A stretch of DNA of 64,000 bases, taken from NCBI RefSeq assembly GCF_040954645.1, contig NC_092805.1:75858564-75922563 (forward strand), written 5' to 3'. Shown here one piece after another: positions 1,421 to 11,629 of the stretch. Every line of letters starts with the position of its first letter. Position 1 is the first letter of the stretch. This DNA comes from Diabrotica undecimpunctata (Eukaryota > Arthropoda > Insecta > Coleoptera > Chrysomelidae). A model generated the notes under the pieces. That model was given only the letters and a program-made list of their open reading frames with translations. It was not told where the DNA came from and ran no database searches. The translations under genes were made by a program, and so were the position numbers.

Positions 1421-1780
1421 TGTTACGTAAAAATATGAGTCATATTAAAAACCTGTAAACATGTTTTTATTCACATGTTTATGTTTTAGATTGTACGAGA
1501 GCCTTCTATTTACCTGAACGGTACCTTCCAGAAAACGGTCGAAACGATGACCCGGATTAACCTTCTAGTATAATCAGGCTGAATTCTCGACCGGCTGTGT
1601 TTTGTTATATAATAACGGAGCTTTCATGGAAGGGACAGTTAGTATCTGAAGACTCGCGCCCGCGATTTTAAATGTTACGTTCGGATATATAAATTATTGT
1701 AAGACAAATTAATATAAATAAAAAAATAAATTAAATTCGTAAGTGTTATATATATTGAACCTTTTAATAAATTCACAACA
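1421..1780 (+). repeat. Gyp1 5' LTR (360 bp)
   Basis: Starts TGTTACG and ends ACAACA, immediately before the primer binding site. Its first 165 bases match 7356-7520 with one visible substitution (position about 1560: A against G). Confidence 0.92.
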
Positions 1781-1796: not shown

Positions 1797-1871
1797 AAAT
1801 CAAAGTAAATTAGACTTATAGTAATCAATCATAACGTTTTGTTCCGAAGAGAATATTTTTAAATCGTTAAA

Positions 1872-3176
1872 ATGACGACGATTTATGAGCTGACAGTGAC
1901 TAATTTAAGAAGACATCTTGAAGACAGAGAATTAGCTTCTACCGGAAAAAAGGCTGAGTTAGTCCAACGACTAAAGAATGCTTTGCTAGAAGAAGGACTA
2001 GGTCCAGAGACTTATATATTTGAAGATGCTGTCATCTCGTCGATTTCGAAATTAGAGAACAAAGTTTCTGGCGATATTTCGAAAGTTTCTGGTGACATCG
2101 CATCATTAGAGAACAAAGTTTCCGGCGACATCGCATCATTGGAGAACAAAGTTTCCGGCGACATCACATCATTGGAGAACAAAGTTTCTAACGAGATTTC
2201 TTCTCTGGAAAGCAAAGTTTCTGCTAACATCTCTTCGGAAATCTCTAAAGTCACTTCTGAGATGTCTGCCCTGGACGATAGAATGTCTTCGTTAAAAAAT
2301 CAAGTTGCTGCCGATATGTTGGCCTTCGAAGAAAAGATAAAAGAGATGGAAAGGAAGATGGAGGAAACAGGGACAGCAGAGAGAGGTAACAATCCGATTA
2401 CAGTGGAGATAAAAGAAGACGAGACGAAATGTAAGTTGGAGACACGGCCGAAATTTGAAGGAAGTGGAGGTTCTATTCATGTTAAAGTCCCAACTTTCGA
2501 CGGAAAATCATCATGGAACAACTACATGAAACAGTTCGAATCAGTCGCAAGAGCGAATGGATGGTCTGAAAAAGAAAAGGCTGTAAACCTGACTATCACT
2601 CTTCGAGGAGATGCCTTAGATGTGCTTCAGACCATAGCCGTAGAGGAGACCGATGATTTCGAACAACTCAAGAACAGGTTAAATATGCGATATGGCCACG
2701 AACATTTGGAGTATGTATATCAATCGCAGCTTAAAAATCGTAGACAGAAGAAAGATGAGGCTCTTCAAGAATATGAGGTAGATATTACCAGATTAGTACG
2801 ATATGCTTATCCAACAGCTCCCGAAGACATGATGGAAAAATTGGCCGTTCAAACGTTTATTGATGGTCTTCGTGATCATGAAATGCAGAGAACACTACGA
2901 TTAGCTCGTCACAAGACGCTGGTTGATGTCTTATCCGCCGCCCTCGAATACGAGTCAGCTACGCAGTCCTCTGGAGGGTACAGTGAAGTTAGGACTGTAA
3001 AAGAGGAAGGAGATGAAGATAAACTTGACCAGCTGGTTAATATGATTAAGAGTATGACATACAAGAAAATGAACACCATAAGATGCTGGAATTGTGGCGA
3101 AATAGGACACGTACGAAGTTCATGTAAGCACCCTAGGTACGACGCAAATCAAGAAACTCACCACCAGGAAAACTAG
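1872..3176 (+). CDS. Gyp1 Gag with SAP domain, coiled coil and CCHC knuckle
   Basis: Structural protein (434 aa) that would form the virus-like particle and bind element RNA. Residues about 5-40 look like a SAP DNA-binding domain (TVTNLRRHLEDREL with a leucine- and lysine-rich second helix). Residues about 57-165 are a coiled coil built of an 11-residue repeat of the type SLENKVSGDIA, encoded by 33-base tandem units at about 2050-2200. A Retrotrans_gag-like region follows (about 205-345). A CCHC zinc knuckle, CWNCGEIGHVRSSC, lies near residue 408. The frame is intact. The ATG at 1872 follows the PBS by 75 bases. Pol is in the -1 frame and its open frame overlaps the gag end, so a -1 ribosomal frameshift near 3165-3175 (GGAAAAC) is likely but unproven. 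A SAP domain in Gag is unusual and could contact host DNA or matrix. Confidence 0.9.
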   Translation: MTTIYELTVTNLRRHLEDRELASTGKKAELVQRLKNALLEEGLGPETYIFEDAVISSISKLENKVSGDISKVSGDIASLENKVSGDIASLENKVSGDITSLENKVSNEISSLESKVSANISSEISKVTSEMSALDDRMSSLKNQVAADMLAFEEKIKEMERKMEETGTAERGNNPITVEIKEDETKCKLETRPKFEGSGGSIHVKVPTFDGKSSWNNYMKQFESVARANGWSEKEKAVNLTITLRGDALDVLQTIAVEETDDFEQLKNRLNMRYGHEHLEYVYQSQLKNRRQKKDEALQEYEVDITRLVRYAYPTAPEDMMEKLAVQTFIDGLRDHEMQRTLRLARHKTLVDVLSAALEYESATQSSGGYSEVRTVKEEGDEDKLDQLVNMIKSMTYKKMNTIRCWNCGEIGHVRSSCKHPRYDANQETHHQEN

Positions 3177-6100
3177 AACGGGTCAGCCTTAGGGGGGCAG
3201 CTTTGACCCGGAACTTTTCCAAAGACCCTCTCATACTAATAGCTTCTTTGAAATGTCGTGAAGATAGTGTATATGTAGATGGAGAAATAAATGATAAAAG
3301 ACATACGTTGTTGGTGGATACCGGAGCGACCAGAACCATTATACGCCCAACAGTTATAAACAGCCGTAAGAAACTGTTACCAACGAGGTTGCGACTTCGG
3401 ACCGCTACAGGTGAAAATGCCAACATTCATGGAGAAATCCAGGTACAATTAGGAATTGGAGCAGAAAAGTTCGTCCATACTGTTATAGTTGCTGACATCG
3501 AAGAGGATGTTATATTAGGAATGGACGTAATGAATATGCATGGATTCCAACTTAATTTTAAGAATAAGGTAATCAAAGTTGGCAACGAGGAGGTATTTCT
3601 TTATCCACATAATGACAACACTGTGCAAGCAGCCATTAAAGAAGATACAGTCGTGCCTGCGAGAAGCGAAACGATCATAGTAGCGCGACTACAGGGAATT
3701 GTAGACGAAGGGACACCTGTTATGATGGAGCCTTGGAACCACGACGATGAGGTTGGCCGTGGAATAATAATTGGAAAGGAATTGGTGACTTCGGCTAAAG
3801 AAATTCCTGTGAAACTTGGAAAAGTAGGAACTTGTGTACCTGTGACATCCATAATCCGTCAGGCGACAACATCTGATAATTCCAACGACAAATTCGACCA
3901 AATGGTTGCAGTTGCAGGACAGTCTCTAAATCAGATGGAGAAAAGGAAATTAAGGGAATTTCTTCGGCAGTATCGTGATATTTTCGTACCGAAAGGAGGA
4001 AAGACGGGAAGAACTACCGTTGTTAAGCATAAAATTGATACTGGTAATGCTAAGCCAATTCATCAAACAGCTCGACGATTACCACAGGCGAAAAGAGAGG
4101 AAGCTGAAACGATTGTTCAGGAAATGAAGAAAGACGGGGTGATAGAACCTTCTACGAGCCCATTGGTCTCTCCGGTGGTCCTGGTTAAGAAGAAAGACGG
4201 AACGACGAGGTTCTGTGTGGATTACCGTTTGCTGAACAACGTTACCAAGAAAGATAGTTATCCTCTGCCTCGGATCGATGACACATTGGACACATTGGCT
4301 GGAAGTAAATTGTTTTCTACTTTGGATTTGAAGTCTGGATACTGGCAGGTAGAAATGGACCCAGTAGATAAAGAAAAGACAGCCTTCACCACAGGATCTG
4401 GATTGTGGCAATTCAACGTTATGCCATTTGGACTCTGTAATGCTCCTGCGACATTTGAGAGGCTTATGGAAAATGTGTTGAGAGGGTTATCTTGGAAAAC
4501 ATGCCTGGTTTATTTAGATGACATAATCGTCTTGGGGGAGACATTCGAAGAACATTTGAAGAATTTAGAAAACGTTTTTAATCGACTTAAAGCTGCCCAA
4601 TTGATGTTAAACCCCAAGAAGTGCCAGCTATTTCAAGGTGAAGTCAATTATCTGGGTCATATAGTCAGTAAAGAAGGAGTGGCCGTGGATAAGGGAAAAA
4701 TTGATTCCATTAAGGAATGGCCAGTACCAACGGACAAACATCAAGTTAGAAGTTTTCTTGGACTATGTACTTACTACCGAAGGTTTATCAAGAAGTTTGC
4801 AGATATCGCTAAGCCATTAACGCGACTTACAGAGGAAGCAAGAGAATACCGCTGGGATACAGACTGACAAAATGCCTTTGAGACCTTAAAAAAGCATTTA
4901 ATAACAGCACCAATTTTAGGGTATCCACTGCCAGAAGGAGAGTTCATCTTAGATACGGATGCAAGTAATGTGGGAATTGGAGGAGTGCTGTCTCAGATTC
5001 AAGGAGGACAGGAACGAGTCCTCGGATATTTTAGTAAAGTTCTTTCAAAACCTGAGTGGAATTATTGCGTCACGAGAAGAGAACTTCTAGCAGTAGTTAA
5101 ATCAGTAGAGCACTTCTATCAATATCTCTATGGCAGAAAGTTTCTAATCCGAACCGACCATGCCGCCCTTAAGTGGTTGATGCAATTTAAGAATCCAGAG
5201 GGTCAGATAGCCAGGTGGATCGAACGACTCCAAGAATACGATTTTAAGATTGAGCACCGGGTCGGAGTTAGCCACACAAACGCTGATTCTCTTTCCAGAA
5301 GGCCATGCCCAGCAGAGTGTTCCCACTGCAACAAAACGGAATCCAAGGAAGCAGCAGTGCTAAGAACGACGATGGTCAACGACGACTGGAGGCCTACTAA
5401 GATAAGGGAAGAACAAGAGAGAGATCCAGTTGTACAGAAAATTCTAAAATAGAAAGAGGAAAACCGTCGACCACCTTGGCAAGAAATATCAAACCTATGC
5501 TCAGTAGTTAAGACGTATTGGGCCCAGTGGGACTCATTTATCATCGAAGATGGCTTGCTCAAACGAGTCCTAGAAAATGATGACGGTTCAGAGAAGAGAA
5601 GACAGTTGGTGATCCCAAAGAGCAGAATAGCCGAAGTACTTCGTCAGTTACACGACAGTCCATCAGGAGGGCATTTTGGTGTAAATAAAACCCTTCAGCG
5701 AATTCGGGAACGGTTTTATTGGATGAACAGTTCCGACGACGTAAAAGACTGGTGTAAGAAATGTACTATTTGTGCTGCGAGTAACGGGCCTTACCGAAAA
5801 GGGAGAGCTCCTATGAGACAATATAATGTTGGAAGCCCGTTTGAAAGAATAGCTTTGGACATCGCTGGGTCATTTCCAGAAAGTGAAAATGGAGGCAAGT
5901 ACAAGTTGGTAGTAATGGATTACTTTACTAAGTGGGTCGAGATTTACGCACTTCCAGACCAGAAGGCCGCCACCGTTGCAGATAAGTTGATCCAAGAATA
6001 TATCAGCCGATTTGGAGTGCCTTTGGAGATCCATAGTGACCAAGGCAGGAACTTCGAAAGCGATCTATTCCACGGAATATGTGATAGACTAGGCATGAAG

Positions 6101-6819
6101 AAAACAAGAACTACAGCATATCATCCGCAATCTGATGGTATGGTAGAACGGATGAATAGGACAGTTGGCAAGTATTTGACAAAGATGGTGTCCGATCATC
6201 AGCGAGACTGGGACCAATATCTTCCGTTCTTCACAATGGCCTACAGATCTGCTGTTAACGAATCAACAGGCCAGACACCAGCCAGAGTCCTATTCGGACG
6301 CGAAATACGACTACCTTGTGATCTAGAGTTTGGGTGTCGACCTGGAGAAGACGTAGCAGGTGAAGATTATGTGATCGAATTACAAAGAAGAATGGACGAT
6401 GTACATGAGTTGGTCCGTTCCCACCTTCAGATCGCTAGCGACAGCATGAAGAAATGGTACGATACACAAGCCGAAAAGGGTTGCTTTAAGAAGAACGACA
6501 AAGTATGGCTGTATAATCCCAAGAAACGAAAAGGTTGTTCTCCCAAATTGCAGCAGTTTTGGGAAGGCCCATACTTAATTATGGAGAAGATCAACGATGT
6601 CATCTACCGAATAAGCAAGATTCCGAGGGGAAAGCCGATGATAGTACACCATAACCGGCTGGCGTCTTTCGAAGGTGACCACGACGTAGATGAAGAAGTG
6701 GAAGTAAACCAAGTCCAAGACGTGTCTGACCTCACGTTTGAGGAATTCATGGGTGCCTATGGAGGTACCGGTAAAGCAAGACATGGTGTTACCACTGAAG
6801 AAAAGCAAGATCTACTCGC

Positions 6820-7294
6820 GCTCCCCGATGACTACTCGCTGGCCCTTACCATCCCGGCCAGTATCAAAGACGCACCAGGATTGGCATCCGTCTTTCGAAG
6901 TAAGTTTGGTCGAGTTGCAGAACTTCAATGCCAGGTGCCAGCTCCCGGTAAAACCTTGAAACTCCAAGATGCATCACGTTACCTTTTCTACCTGGTAACA
7001 AAAGACACTGCCCGTGACCAACCTACCTACCGAGATGTATGGGAAGCCTTACTTCAATTGAGAGAGCACGTACTAGAGTCCGACGTGCAAAAGTTAGCCA
7101 TGCCAAAGTTGGAGTGCCGCCAATTAGATTGGAGGGTTATCCGAAATATGGTGGAGGAGATCTTTAAAGACACCGAAGTCCAGGTGTTAGTCTGTTGCAA
7201 TCTGCATAGTTACTGGTGCGGAGAGAAAACCGTCCCTTGTCATTTTTATACAACTGGAAGTTGTAAAAGAGGGTCCAGTTGCCGATACCAGCAT
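6820..7294 (+). other. Macro domain plus CCCH zinc finger fused to Gyp1 Pol
   Basis: Seen directly: about 125 residues beginning LPDDYSLALTIPASI, with GLASVFRSKFG, YLFYLVTKD and MPKLECRQLDWRVI in the order and spacing of TARG1-like macro domains. These proteins bind ADP-ribose and can remove it from proteins. The lysine of the ITK/VTK strand is present. The glycine-rich GCG loop and the following aspartate of the active human enzyme are replaced or shortened (LECRQLD), so hydrolysis may be lost while the fold or ligand binding stays. Then CHFYTTGSCKRGSSCRYQH fits C-x7-C-x5-C-x3-H, a CCCH finger of RNA-binding type. Role is inference: countering host ADP-ribosylation or a PARP/ZAP-like defence, or binding element RNA. 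Confidence 0.8.
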
Positions 7295-7342
7295 ACCGTT
7301 CCAGTTCTAGTCCCGACAAGGTTCCAGGAGGAACCATCTTTT

Positions 7343-7353
7343 GAGAGGGGGGC
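7343..7353 (+). other. Gyp1 polypurine tract
   Basis: GAGAGGGGGGC directly before the 3' LTR (TGTTACG at 7356). It primes plus-strand DNA synthesis. Here it is also coding, because pol reads through it. Confidence 0.85.
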
Positions 7354-7355
7354 AA

Positions 7356-7520
7356 TGTTACGTAAAAATATGAGTCATATTAAAAACCTGTAAACATGTT
7401 TTTATTCACATGTTTATGTTTTAGATTGTACGAGAGCCTTCTATTTACCTGAACGGTACCTTCCAGAAAACGGTCGAAACGATGACCCGGATTGACCTTC
7501 TAGTATAATCAGGCTGAATT
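7356..7520 (+). repeat. Gyp1 3' LTR, truncated
   Basis: Matches the first 165 bases of the 5' LTR and then stops. The next bases (GTGAA) are filler before Gan1 LTR sequence resumes at about 7526. The U3 start is kept but the downstream R/U5 part is lost. Confidence 0.92.
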
Positions 7521-7620
7521 GTGAAAGGTGTGATATAAATCATAAATCAAAAAATTTAAATAATGTTTTATATATATTTTTTGTAAAGTTTTAAAATTAA
7601 AATTCTTGATATCACATTAA
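7521..7620 (+). repeat. Gan1 5' LTR, right end
   Basis: Matches 11478-11570 (GGTGTGATATAAATC onward), ends near ATATCACATTAA, and is followed by the primer binding site. About 435 bases of the LTR present at 11043-11477 are missing here. Confidence 0.85.
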
Positions 7621-7640: not shown

Positions 7641-7991
7641 CTTTAAAATATCACAAGCTTTACATTTGATGATAGGGAAAGAGAGACGGAATAATTACAG
7701 GTGGTCCGGAGATTTTGAATGAATTTTGAATTTTAAATTATTTTGACAATTTTCCATTTGACAAAAATTTGATTTATTGAGTGATCGTATTTATTGAATA
7801 TTTATTGCTTTGAATTATTTGATTTTATTTTACCAATCGTATATTTAATATTATTTTACTATTCGTATTTTTGATATTTGTCGTGAAAATTTATTACATT
7901 TTGGGAGAGATAAGTGTCGTGTCTGCAACATATAGAGTGTGGTAAAATTTCACATTTGGCGGGGACAAAAAGAGTAACAAAAAGAAACAAC

Positions 7992-9435
7992 ATGTCTGTC
8001 ACAAGGAGACAAAGCAAAATGCAGGAAAGGAAGGAGGATAACAGAAGATGAAACAATTTTGGAAGAAGGATCGGATAATGAAAGAAATGTTACAATAGTT
8101 GAGGAGAGAAAAGAATCATCAGGAATAGATAACATATTACAACTAATGCAACTCCAGTCACAAAAAATGGAAGAGACAAAACAAACAATAGAGAAAAACC
8201 AAAGAGAAACATCACTAAAAATGTATGAAACAAAACAAACAATAGAAGAAAACAACAGGAATATAGAACAGCGTTTGGAAAATTATGAACAGAAAATTAA
8301 AGGATGTGTAGAGGAGATAAAAAGAGAAATGATACAACAGATAGAAAAGATTAATGAAATTAAAAATAAAATGGGAGAACAAGAAAAGAAAGTAGAAAAC
8401 AAGATGAAGGAAATCAAGATTGTCCAGAAAAAGGAATTAGAACAGTTAGAAGAAAAATTTGAAATGGCGCTACAAGAAGACAGGAAAGAAGTAGAAAGGA
8501 GATTAAAGCAAAATGAAAAACATATTGCAGAAATAAAACAACAAAGAGGAGGAGAGAGAAAAGAAGTTATCGTCCATAGCACAAGCGAGGCGAAAGTACA
8601 ATTTGGCGGGGACATTAGAACGACACACCCAGTACCATTTGTTAAAAATTTAAAAACCAAATTGCAACATATTGGAGATTTTGACGATGGCAAAGAAACA
8701 ATTAGGAACCATCTGAAAGAAGGAGCAGCGTTATGGTACGAAAGCAAAGAGGATGAATTTGAAAATTGGACAGATTTCGAAAACAAATTCCTCAACTATT
8801 TCTGGGGGAAAAATAAACAAAGGGAAATTAATCAAGAACTACAAAATGGAAAGTATACTGAGGAAATGGGTATATCTGAAGAAAGATATGCATTACAGAT
8901 ATACAATAATTCAAAATATCTGGAATACAAATATTCTACCGAACAGCTGGTAGAAATGATCAGCAGACATTTTGAGGAAACTTTGGAGGATCACGTGATC
9001 TGAAGAAACTATCAAGATATTGATAGTTTATGCCAATGTTTACAGTTAAAAGAGGCGAAAAGAAGGCAAATGAGAAATAGAAGACAGAATGACCAATATC
9101 ATAGACCGGAAAGAAGATACCAAGCAAATTATGACCAGAGAAACCGATATCCCAGAACAACAAACGAATATAGGCCGAGAAATTACAACAATTTCAATAG
9201 ACAACAAAATTACGATAACAGAAACGGCACACAAAACAGAACATATGAAAGGAACAATAGGGACAGAGTTGCACAAAATCATCCTAATAGGAATATTAAC
9301 GAACAAAGGGACGAGAGAAACAACCAAAGCTTCCAAAGACAAAACAGAAGAGAAATGAACCATGCATCCGTAGAACGAGAGGAAGAAGATGGATGCAGTG
9401 AACACAGACAGGATTTTCAAGAAAGCATCCACTAA
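7992..9435 (+). pseudogene. Gan1 Gag, frameshift and nonsense codon
   Basis: An ATG at 7992 opens a short basic start that runs into TGA. The main frame (8059 onward) is one base out of step, so a small indel lies near 8040-8055. The long frame encodes a coiled coil (about 8110-8560; repeats rich in E, K and Q), a capsid-like region (IRTTHPVPFVKNLKTKLQHI, ALWYESKEDEFENW), TGA at 9001-9003, then an R/N/Q-rich tail (9070-9435; many RN, NRY and RQN pairs) that replaces a zinc knuckle. The same plan occurs in Gan2 Gag. Likely an RNA-binding structural protein, now broken. Confidence 0.8.
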
Positions 9436-9439
9436 ATAA

Positions 9440-10039
9440 ACATAAAAAAACTCTCTGTTATATTTTGTCATCCGAGAGAGTTTTTACAGTTGGCAGGGAA
9501 CGAAAGACAAAACTCTAATTCAAATTTAATATTTTTAGATGCATTTATAAAAAATAAAGCTATTAAAATTTTGATTGATTCTGGATCGGAAATATCATTA
9601 ATTAATAGAAATTTAGTAAAAGAATTGAATTTTGACAGATTTGTATATAATATTCCTAGGGTTGCTTTAGTGGGTGCGAACAATAAAAAATTGACGACAG
9701 TAAACGAAGGTTTGGGAGTACGGATCAGAGTGGGAAAAATCTATATTATGCAATGTGTGGTGATCGACGGTTTAAATCATGATATGATAGCGGGAATAGA
9801 TGAGTTGAGCGAAAAACACATCACGATTAATTTTTCTGAAAATAAATTGGAAATCAGAGCAGAACCAGACCACAAAGAAGAGGGCCAAGAAACAGATATG
9901 ACGAAAATTGTTGAAAGGACAAATGAACAGGGAAACCATAAAGAAATCAACACGACAGTAGAGAACAGAACACGACATAGAAACAGGAAATATACGGGGT
10001 ATTTTTAACATTCACGACATTTATCGATATCATGAGTAA
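9440..10039 (+). pseudogene. Gan1 protease joined to integrase tail
   Basis: Aspartic protease with IDSGSEISLI (about 9570) and the motif GANNKKL (about 9677), in a frame open from 9490 to 10008. A leader with HPREF lies just upstream, as in Gan3. The end of this frame runs into the last dozen integrase codons in another frame (GIFNIHDIY, stop at 10039), the same C-terminus type as in Gan3. RT, RNase H, integrase core and most of the integrase C-terminal domain are absent, so a deletion joins protease to the integrase end. Confidence 0.82.
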
Positions 10040-10142
10040 ATTTCAATAACATATTGTAATAATTTGACCCTTGAAAAACTTTTGTCATTTTATAAAAAAA
10101 ATGATAAAGAGTTTTTCGGCGAATCAAATGGCGGGAAGTTTT

Positions 10143-11567
10143 TGTGGTATTCAAAATTGAAGAGTAAAAATATTAAATGTACGATGAAATCAATATTTCA
10201 GAGATTATAGAAAGTAAAAATACTCTGCACTGCCTGGAATTAACCAAAGGTAATCTTAGTTATAAATAATCTTTTGTATAAATATAACAAGTGGATAGTG
10301 CGGGTACAATGAATAGAAGTTAACGATGGTTTTTTCCCATAAGCCATAAAGTGTTCCGTAATCCGGGTTTGCGCCATGAACAGGACAATAAAAATAGTTA
10401 ATAAGTAAATGGTTTTTTCGGAATCTGTAAATACCCAGTAGAAATTAAGTGTACTTGTAGAAATAATATGAATTGGGAAAGTTTGTAGGTATTTTTAATT
10501 TTATGTGGGGAGTGGTATGCAAATTTTCGTTTTGTCCGAGAATTTGGAAAGTGGTGAGATGGGTGTGTATAATGAGAGGTTGGATGGATGGATAGATGAG
10601 ATGAGAGAGGTAGTTAGTTCCAGTTTCTTAAAGTGAATGGTTGGTTTTCGAGGTGGTCTCCAGGGGTAGTAAGTGATGAAGAATAAGTTGTGAGTTGGTG
10701 AAGTAAGTGTGTCCGACGGTAGTTGATCTGGTGCAAATTTGTAAGTAAACTTTTCCTACTTGTATTCTACGTATCGCTGTTTATTTCGGAACGAGAGATT
10801 AAGTTTGAAGAGAGGAAAAGAGGCTGACATCATTGGAAAGGTACGTGCATTCGAAGGAGAGCATTGAAGACACTAAATTGCAATATCTTGTTTAATATTG
10901 CCAATTACATAGGAGGCTGCTGAGAACTGATAGTTAATTTTGCATAGAACGAGGAATTGGACAACTCAAGGCAGAGGAAGCGTTTCCACGGGAGAAACAT
11001 TCATAATATATTCAATTTGAGAATTTTGGGTCAAATAATATTATATCATATTAGTAACGTGTGAATAAGTTGTCGATAGTCGAAGGAGATCAAATTTGTT
11101 CTGAGAAGGGACACTGAGCTGTGGAGAGAATTGGATAATTCATACAAATTTTTCTTGGTACAATCGATATACCAAAATTGCATTAGGAAGGACACTGAAT
11201 ATTACTTGATTTGTTTATGTAGAATAATAAGCTGGATTCTAGATTGTAATTGTATTATATTATCCATGCATTATTGAAGGTTCACGTACGTAGAACGAAT
11301 TTTGTTTGGTAAACATTGTATGCTAATAATTTTTGGAGGTATTTTAATCAGTTTATTTTATTACATTATTTTCATATCATATTATGTTGTTTTATTCCGT
11401 TATTCTTTGGACCTAACCCATCAGCTGTAAAGTATAGATATTGAAGCACGAGTAAAACCTGAGATAACAAAATTGACAGGTGTGATATAAATCATAAATC
11501 AAAAAATTTAAATAATGTTTTATATATATTTTTTGTAAAGTTTTAAAATTTAAATTCTGCATATCAC

Positions 11568-11570
<3 letters not shown>
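10143..11570 (+). repeat. Gan1 3' LTR
   Basis: About 1.43 kb, starting TGTGGTATTC after GGCGGGAAG and ending at the TA tract. It is the complete reference for the split 5' LTR. The two differ by scattered substitutions and a 30-base indel, so Gan1 is older than Gyp1, which sits inside it. Confidence 0.88.

Positions 11571-11629
<59 letters not shown>
11571..11629. repeat. (TA)n tract at right end of Gan1
   Basis: Pure TA following the Gan1 3' LTR; the partner of 483-549. Confidence 0.9.

Follow-up and report, generated by a model that had tools for sequence, protein, structure and literature searches.

A TARG1-type macro domain carried as a C-terminal integrase extension in a beetle Ty3/gypsy lineage: a possible ancestral hydrolase, perhaps reduced to a non-catalytic module in one subclade

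The window, that is, the whole 64-kb stretch of DNA analysed here, contains a Ty3/gypsy (Metaviridae) LTR element on its + strand, with LTRs, gag and a pol ordered PR-RT-RNaseH-IN. Its parts are as follows, with Pfam matches in brackets.

1421..1585, + strand: part of the 5' LTR common to the 3' LTR; 164 of 165 bases are identical to 7356-7520
1863..3176, + strand: gag frame; SAP domain 1890-1985 (PF02037, E=9.9e-7), gag 2592-2876 (Retrotrans_gag, 9.3e-9), zinc knuckle 3081-3131 (zf-CCHC, 1.9e-4)
3137..4864, + strand: pol frame, first piece; protease 3275-3535 (gag-asp_proteas, 4.8e-11), reverse transcriptase 4184-4666 (RVT_1, 4.4e-39); stop at 4865-4867
4868..5449, + strand: pol frame, second piece; RNase H 4931-5239 (RT_RNaseH, 6.6e-35); stop at 5450-5452
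5453..6700, + strand: integrase; H2C2 5612-5785 (1.5e-21), core 5846-6127 (1.9e-12), p58 C-terminal domain 6566-6664 (2.5e-13)
6731..6787, + strand: linker motif between integrase and macro domain, LTFEEFMGAYGGTGKARHG, conserved among relatives (19/19 residues in P0001, 16/19 in P0002, 13/19 in P0004)
6788..7192, + strand: TARG1/OARD1-type macro domain; K84 equivalent 7001-7003, shortened D125 loop 7100-7120
7238..7294, + strand: CCCH zinc finger, C-x8-C-x5-C-x3-H (PF00642, E=9.3e-7)
7343..7355, + strand: polypurine tract abutting the 3' LTR, seen in the sequence and translated within the frame as ERGA
7356..7520, + strand: 3' LTR, broken off after 165 bases; the pol frame stop, 7391-7393, lies inside it

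The 5' LTR probably ends at about 1780, with a primer-binding-site-like TGGTGTCGGAAG near 1784, both end and site being placed by eye. The rest of the 3' LTR beyond 7520 was not found elsewhere within the 64-kb window. The SAP domain forms the N-terminus of gag, and a run of 33-base repeats comes after it (2082-2213). The pol of this copy is broken by the two stops at 4865-4867 and 5450-5452. Past the p58 domain (~6664) the frame is open to 7390, while each of the remaining five frames of 6701-7390 contains 9 to 14 stops. A first-pass annotation, made from the DNA letters, had described a Pol that runs past the integrase C-terminus through a macro domain and a CCCH finger to the polypurine tract and LTR, in a frame whole in the tail and interrupted twice upstream, and this description holds. 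No chromodomain was found among the Pfam matches at E<=1 for 5453-6700 and 6701-7390, a search that very diverged chromodomains could escape.

Fold search and sequence comparison both give TARG1 (PDB 4j5r, 4j5s, 2eee) as the nearest relative of the macro fold in the tail, in agreement with the fold assigned at first pass. The general Macro model of Pfam had no listed match on the window tail. TARG1/OARD1 (C6orf130) is the terminal ADP-ribose protein glycohydrolase, from which the window tail differs in being fused to an integrase. The DarG macrodomain antitoxin (PDB 5m31, 5m3e, 5m3i), a bacterial toxin-antitoxin partner, is farther from the tail than TARG1, at 19-24% identity. The CCCH finger, also proposed at first pass, exceeds the Pfam cut-off for PF00642 (29.1 bits vs 20.5). 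When the tail fold was searched against a viral library the top match was Kadipiro virus VP8 (E=3.7e-16, 30% identity, rmsd 13.1 over 182 columns), and the next were from insect flavi-, virga- and negev-like viruses, so that folds of this TARG1-like kind may be a recurrent feature of insect viruses. Two scans of viral contigs found no relative.

A profile search with the tail returned 148 proteins at E<=0.001. Whether the tail travels with the integrase, a check that the first-pass annotation had called for, can be answered in the affirmative: precomputed Pfam matches place the integrase p58 domain in 12 proteins of the best 120 of these 148, and a direct scan places it in 8 of the 10 proteins scanned. 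These counts are lower bounds, because the protein searches took lengths of 0.55-1.75 x the query (646 or 230 residues), which excludes full-length Pol proteins, and because the best 120 of the 148 were considered. In P0001, from Diabrotica virgifera virgifera, the integrase C-terminus, macro domain and finger lie in the same frame and the tail is 89% identical to that of the window. The relatives suggest a beetle close to Diabrotica as the host. Among the matches listed, an integrase C-terminus is joined to a macro domain in Molorchus minor (P0010, P0015) and Aromia moschata (P0022), and pieces of the tail occur in Brassicogethes aeneus, Acanthoscelides obtectus, Psylliodes chrysocephalus and Aquatica leii; in the Aquatica protein P0038 an integrase-like piece can be seen by eye to be joined to the macro domain. 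Eight further fused proteins (P0002, P0004, P0009, P0012, P0013, P0017, P0021, P0024) lie on contigs of 1.0-2.4 kb, much of which is occupied by their ORFs. The taxonomy of four hosts (Chrysomelidae, Cerambycidae, Nitidulidae and Lampyridae) takes in two beetle infraorders.

Gene models, in which neighbours can become joined, are among these database relatives (P0112, below, may be such a case), and to that extent the tail could be suspected of being an artefact or a private read-through into host DNA. This is hardly credible, since the tail is bounded by the integrase on one side and by the polypurine tract and LTR of the element on the other, and since several species, as well as the ORFs of the short contigs, show the same fusion; private fusion was rejected on these grounds, and the tail is borne by the element, as had been proposed. 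For comparison we use 22 element-type rows of the alignment, the window's included, which were selected by the presence of an integrase C-terminus, linker or finger or by close likeness. The CCCH pattern is present in 14 of them. A translated polypurine-like motif follows the finger by 11-19 residues in 10 of the 22, including the window, whose motif is the actual tract in front of the LTR, and is found without the finger pattern in two more (12/22 in total, window included). In the rows other than the window these motifs, seen in protein, would represent polypurine tracts. Some members that keep the macro domain have no finger; P0024, for example, reaches the polypurine-like motif without one. 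At least three Diabrotica proteins that stand in public databases as ADP-ribose glycohydrolase OARD1-like (P0003, P0019, P0036) carry the element's integrase end, its linker or its lost active site, and so look like pieces of the retroelement.

The tree grouped the 22 rows after they had been selected. In a tree of 102 macro domains they fall on one side of a branch with SH-aLRT support of 96, against 80 others, which are the rows filling >90% of the human columns. In a careful tree they group with support of 100/100 against 18 others picked by hand, and of 98/98 against 19 after P0112 was added. Incomplete or chimeric rows were left out (P0005, P0007, P0019, P0027, P0029, P0030, P0032, P0036, P0038, P0045, P0065, P0069, P0110). 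The 22 rows are a clade if the root falls among the others; the inner forks are weak because the columns are few. The Adelges sequence P0028 adjoins the element group on the 102-domain tree (support 80) and does not do so on the tree with 18 others. Independent captures within the main set are not needed, because the 22 rows group together, and the grouping suggests that a host TARG1-type macro domain was probably captured once by a beetle Ty3/gypsy lineage. In P0112, from Rhamnusium bicolor, a macro domain of TARG1 type, in which both catalytic residues can be seen by eye, comes before a DSGA stretch resembling a retropepsin (PF00077, E=0.005, under the cut-off). This protein groups with the host-type rows, and it could be either a second association of a macro domain with a retroelement or a joined gene model.

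In TARG1, K84 is reported to be the nucleophile and D125 to resolve the intermediate; the ligand contacts include H32, C33, S35, T83 and the GxG loop, and the published pattern is TKx(30,35)Px[IL]GxGxD (PMC6397177). The D125A mutant is reported to be inactive toward ADP-ribosylated DNA ends (PMC5725667). The window copy keeps K84, although the loop bearing D125 and the GxG that binds phosphate has been shortened (PKLEC--RQLD vs PRIGCGLDRLQ in TARG1), and in loop 1 H32, C33 and S35 are changed to L, T and P, the H being retained in P0001. With the D125 loop gone and the published pattern absent, the window copy does not have the marks of a TARG1 hydrolase. Of the earlier interpretation, the TARG1-like macro/CCCH/integrase fusion stands, and is shared by relatives, while an ADP-ribose eraser is not supported for this copy.

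Both K84 and D125 are kept in 15 of the 22 element-type rows and in 15/15 of those outside the window's subclade, while one or both sites are lost in 7/7 rows within it (support 99/97), and the loss of the pair maps to one change on the tree. Within the subclade the window, P0001, P0002 and P0003 retain K84 and lack the D125 loop, R84 and G125 are found in P0004 and P0012, and P0009 combines R84 with D125. The window copy, like the three relatives closest to it, has no GxG loop to hold the phosphates, so that ADP-ribose binding is doubtful in these four. Both catalytic residues are kept in 90 of the 93 other rows with both sites filled; the 93 include some left-out element fragments, and of the three exceptions two (P0036, P0005) are pieces of this same tail from Diabrotica. 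The strict published pattern occurs in 6/22 element-type rows (6/15 of those with an intact pair) against 71/80 of the others. In the 15 intact-pair rows the first G of the pattern is replaced by A, S or V in 8, and P0016 has no pattern P. Thus even such rows often deviate from textbook TARG1, and because many of them fall outside the published pattern, the presence of K84 and D125 is no proof of activity.

These residues bear on the idea that the tail is a counter-defence, which would strip ADP-ribose added by host PARPs from the proteins or RNA of the element, as viral macro domains do, with the finger guiding it to element RNA. Such a role would be possible for the 15 of 22 relatives with K84 and D125, and it is in keeping with the recurrence of macro folds among insect virus models, with fish retroviruses reported to have macro-domain ORFs (PMC4977317) and with the reported restriction of human L1 by ZAP, a PARP-family CCCH protein (PMC4441479). 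However, the catalytic pair is lost in the window's branch, and the PARP domain of ZAP is described as being without the catalytic glutamate (PMC4441479). Neither PARP restriction of insect gypsy elements nor PARP action on gypsy cDNA in insects was found in the open PMC literature, among the matches listed. We regard counter-defence as improbable.

The tail appears to be under constraint on either side of the loss. Mean pairwise identity in 5 of the 7 lost-pair rows is 0.71 for the integrase C-terminus, 0.58 for the macro domain, 0.65 for the finger, 0.24 for the linker and 0.26 for the spacer, and in 5 of the 15 intact-pair rows it is 0.70, 0.54, 0.21, 0.25 and 0.24, respectively, these figures being protein identities from few and non-independent rows, with near-copies in the lost-pair set. 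The low value for the intact-pair finger is due to P0017, P0021 and P0024, in which the finger is absent or damaged. Lost-pair comparisons without the near-copies (P0002/P0004/P0012) give macro identities of 0.53, 0.51 and 0.47 at integrase identities of 0.76, 0.62 and 0.71. These macro values are a little under the intact-pair mean, so some relaxation is possible, and the macro domain seems almost as strongly conserved in the rows that have lost the catalytic pair. The slight dip, the loss of the active site in one subclade and that of the finger in some members are what would be expected of a passenger, a tolerated extension that has no function and is in slow decay. Yet conservation of the domains is about double that of the adjoining linker and spacer, and in tail proteins of other beetle families the frame stays open at 41-46% identity (among the best 120 of the 148), and we consider a passenger very unlikely.

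Conservation of the macro domain after the loss of the pair can also be read in favour of a targeting role from the start, in which the tail recognises a mark of chromatin or of DNA damage, either ADP-ribose or a protein, and steers integration in the manner of a chromodomain, hydrolysis being incidental. A chromodomain at the integrase C-terminus is given as the hallmark of chromoviruses (PMC3605345), and the tail lies in the same place, C-terminal to the integrase. However, a pure reader would not need the catalytic residues, both of which are kept in 15/22 rows, and the absence of the GxG loop from the window copy and its three nearest relatives makes a reader of ADP-ribose doubtful there. 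Original targeting is in our view unlikely, though it is the strongest of the competing readings.

The explanation that we favour, with a probability of about 0.48, is that a beetle gypsy lineage captured TARG1 as an extension of its integrase, that the ancestral extension was a hydrolase at the integrase-cDNA complex, and that it has become a non-catalytic module in the subclade of the window. The lineage would keep a captured TARG1-type macro domain, usually with a CCCH finger, C-terminal to the integrase. We infer that the ancestral tail was a working mono-ADP-ribosyl hydrolase, tethered at the integrase-cDNA complex, which would have removed PARP-added ADP-ribose from DNA ends or from Glu/Asp of that complex, linear cDNA with free ends being a plausible target of break-sensing PARPs. 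The finger may bind RNA or aid the packaging of Pol. TARG1 is reported to clear thymidine-linked ADP-ribose on DNA, with K84A failing to rescue (PMC8501950), and to reverse ADP-ribose added to DNA ends by PARP3, with D125A dead, although of the four active hydrolases titrated on DNA ends it was the weakest (PMC5725667). Both of these reported activities would fit with hydrolysis by the ancestral tail at the integrase-DNA complex. In the window's subclade hydrolysis would have been abandoned and the macro domain retained, most likely for reading or docking without catalysis, in aid of the placement or assembly of the intasome. A reading or docking role is the likelier in this branch because the catalytic pair is gone.

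Somewhat more tentatively still, we suggest that the elements represent an undescribed, beetle-wide gypsy class that couples integration to ADP-ribose signalling through an integrase-tethered TARG1 working on the intasome or on ADP-ribosylated DNA ends, the dead enzyme of one branch having turned into a reader or docking module. If this is true, it raises the questions of whether ADP-ribosylation touches the DNA or the integrases of retroelements and of whether a dead enzyme can become an integration reader. Both are directly testable, because within the family some close relatives have the catalytic pair and others do not.

Capture of a domain at the end of the integrase is a known phenomenon, represented by the chromodomain; a TARG1 macro domain with a CCCH finger on a gypsy integrase would be another instance of it. 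We know of no earlier integrase polyprotein that incorporates the fold of an ADP-ribose eraser. In the open PMC literature, among the matches listed, no macro domain was found in a gypsy element, nor a gypsy integrase fused to a TARG1 macro domain and a CCCH finger. Chromoviruses are described as having likewise captured a chromatin or signalling domain at the same position in Pol (PMC3605345). Theirs is a chromodomain, whereas the window element has a macro domain and a CCCH finger, with a putative role in targeting. Epsilon-like endogenous retroviruses of fish (Basta et al. 2009, as cited in PMC4977317) are likewise retroelements with an acquired macro domain; compared by description only, they differ in being vertebrate retroviruses, with the macro domains reported as additional ORFs (PMC4977317).

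The gypsy element of the window is itself flanked by direct repeats, 548-1198 and 10139-10821, which are 96-99% identical in three blocks. The same repeats also enclose ORFs at 7978-10008, with an Arc/gag-like capsid match below the cut-off followed by a Ty3-type protease above it. The repeats may belong to an outer LTR element within which the gypsy element is nested. A 99-base direct repeat (7522-7620 and 11474-11572, 96% identical) starts right where the gypsy 3' LTR stops, at 7520.
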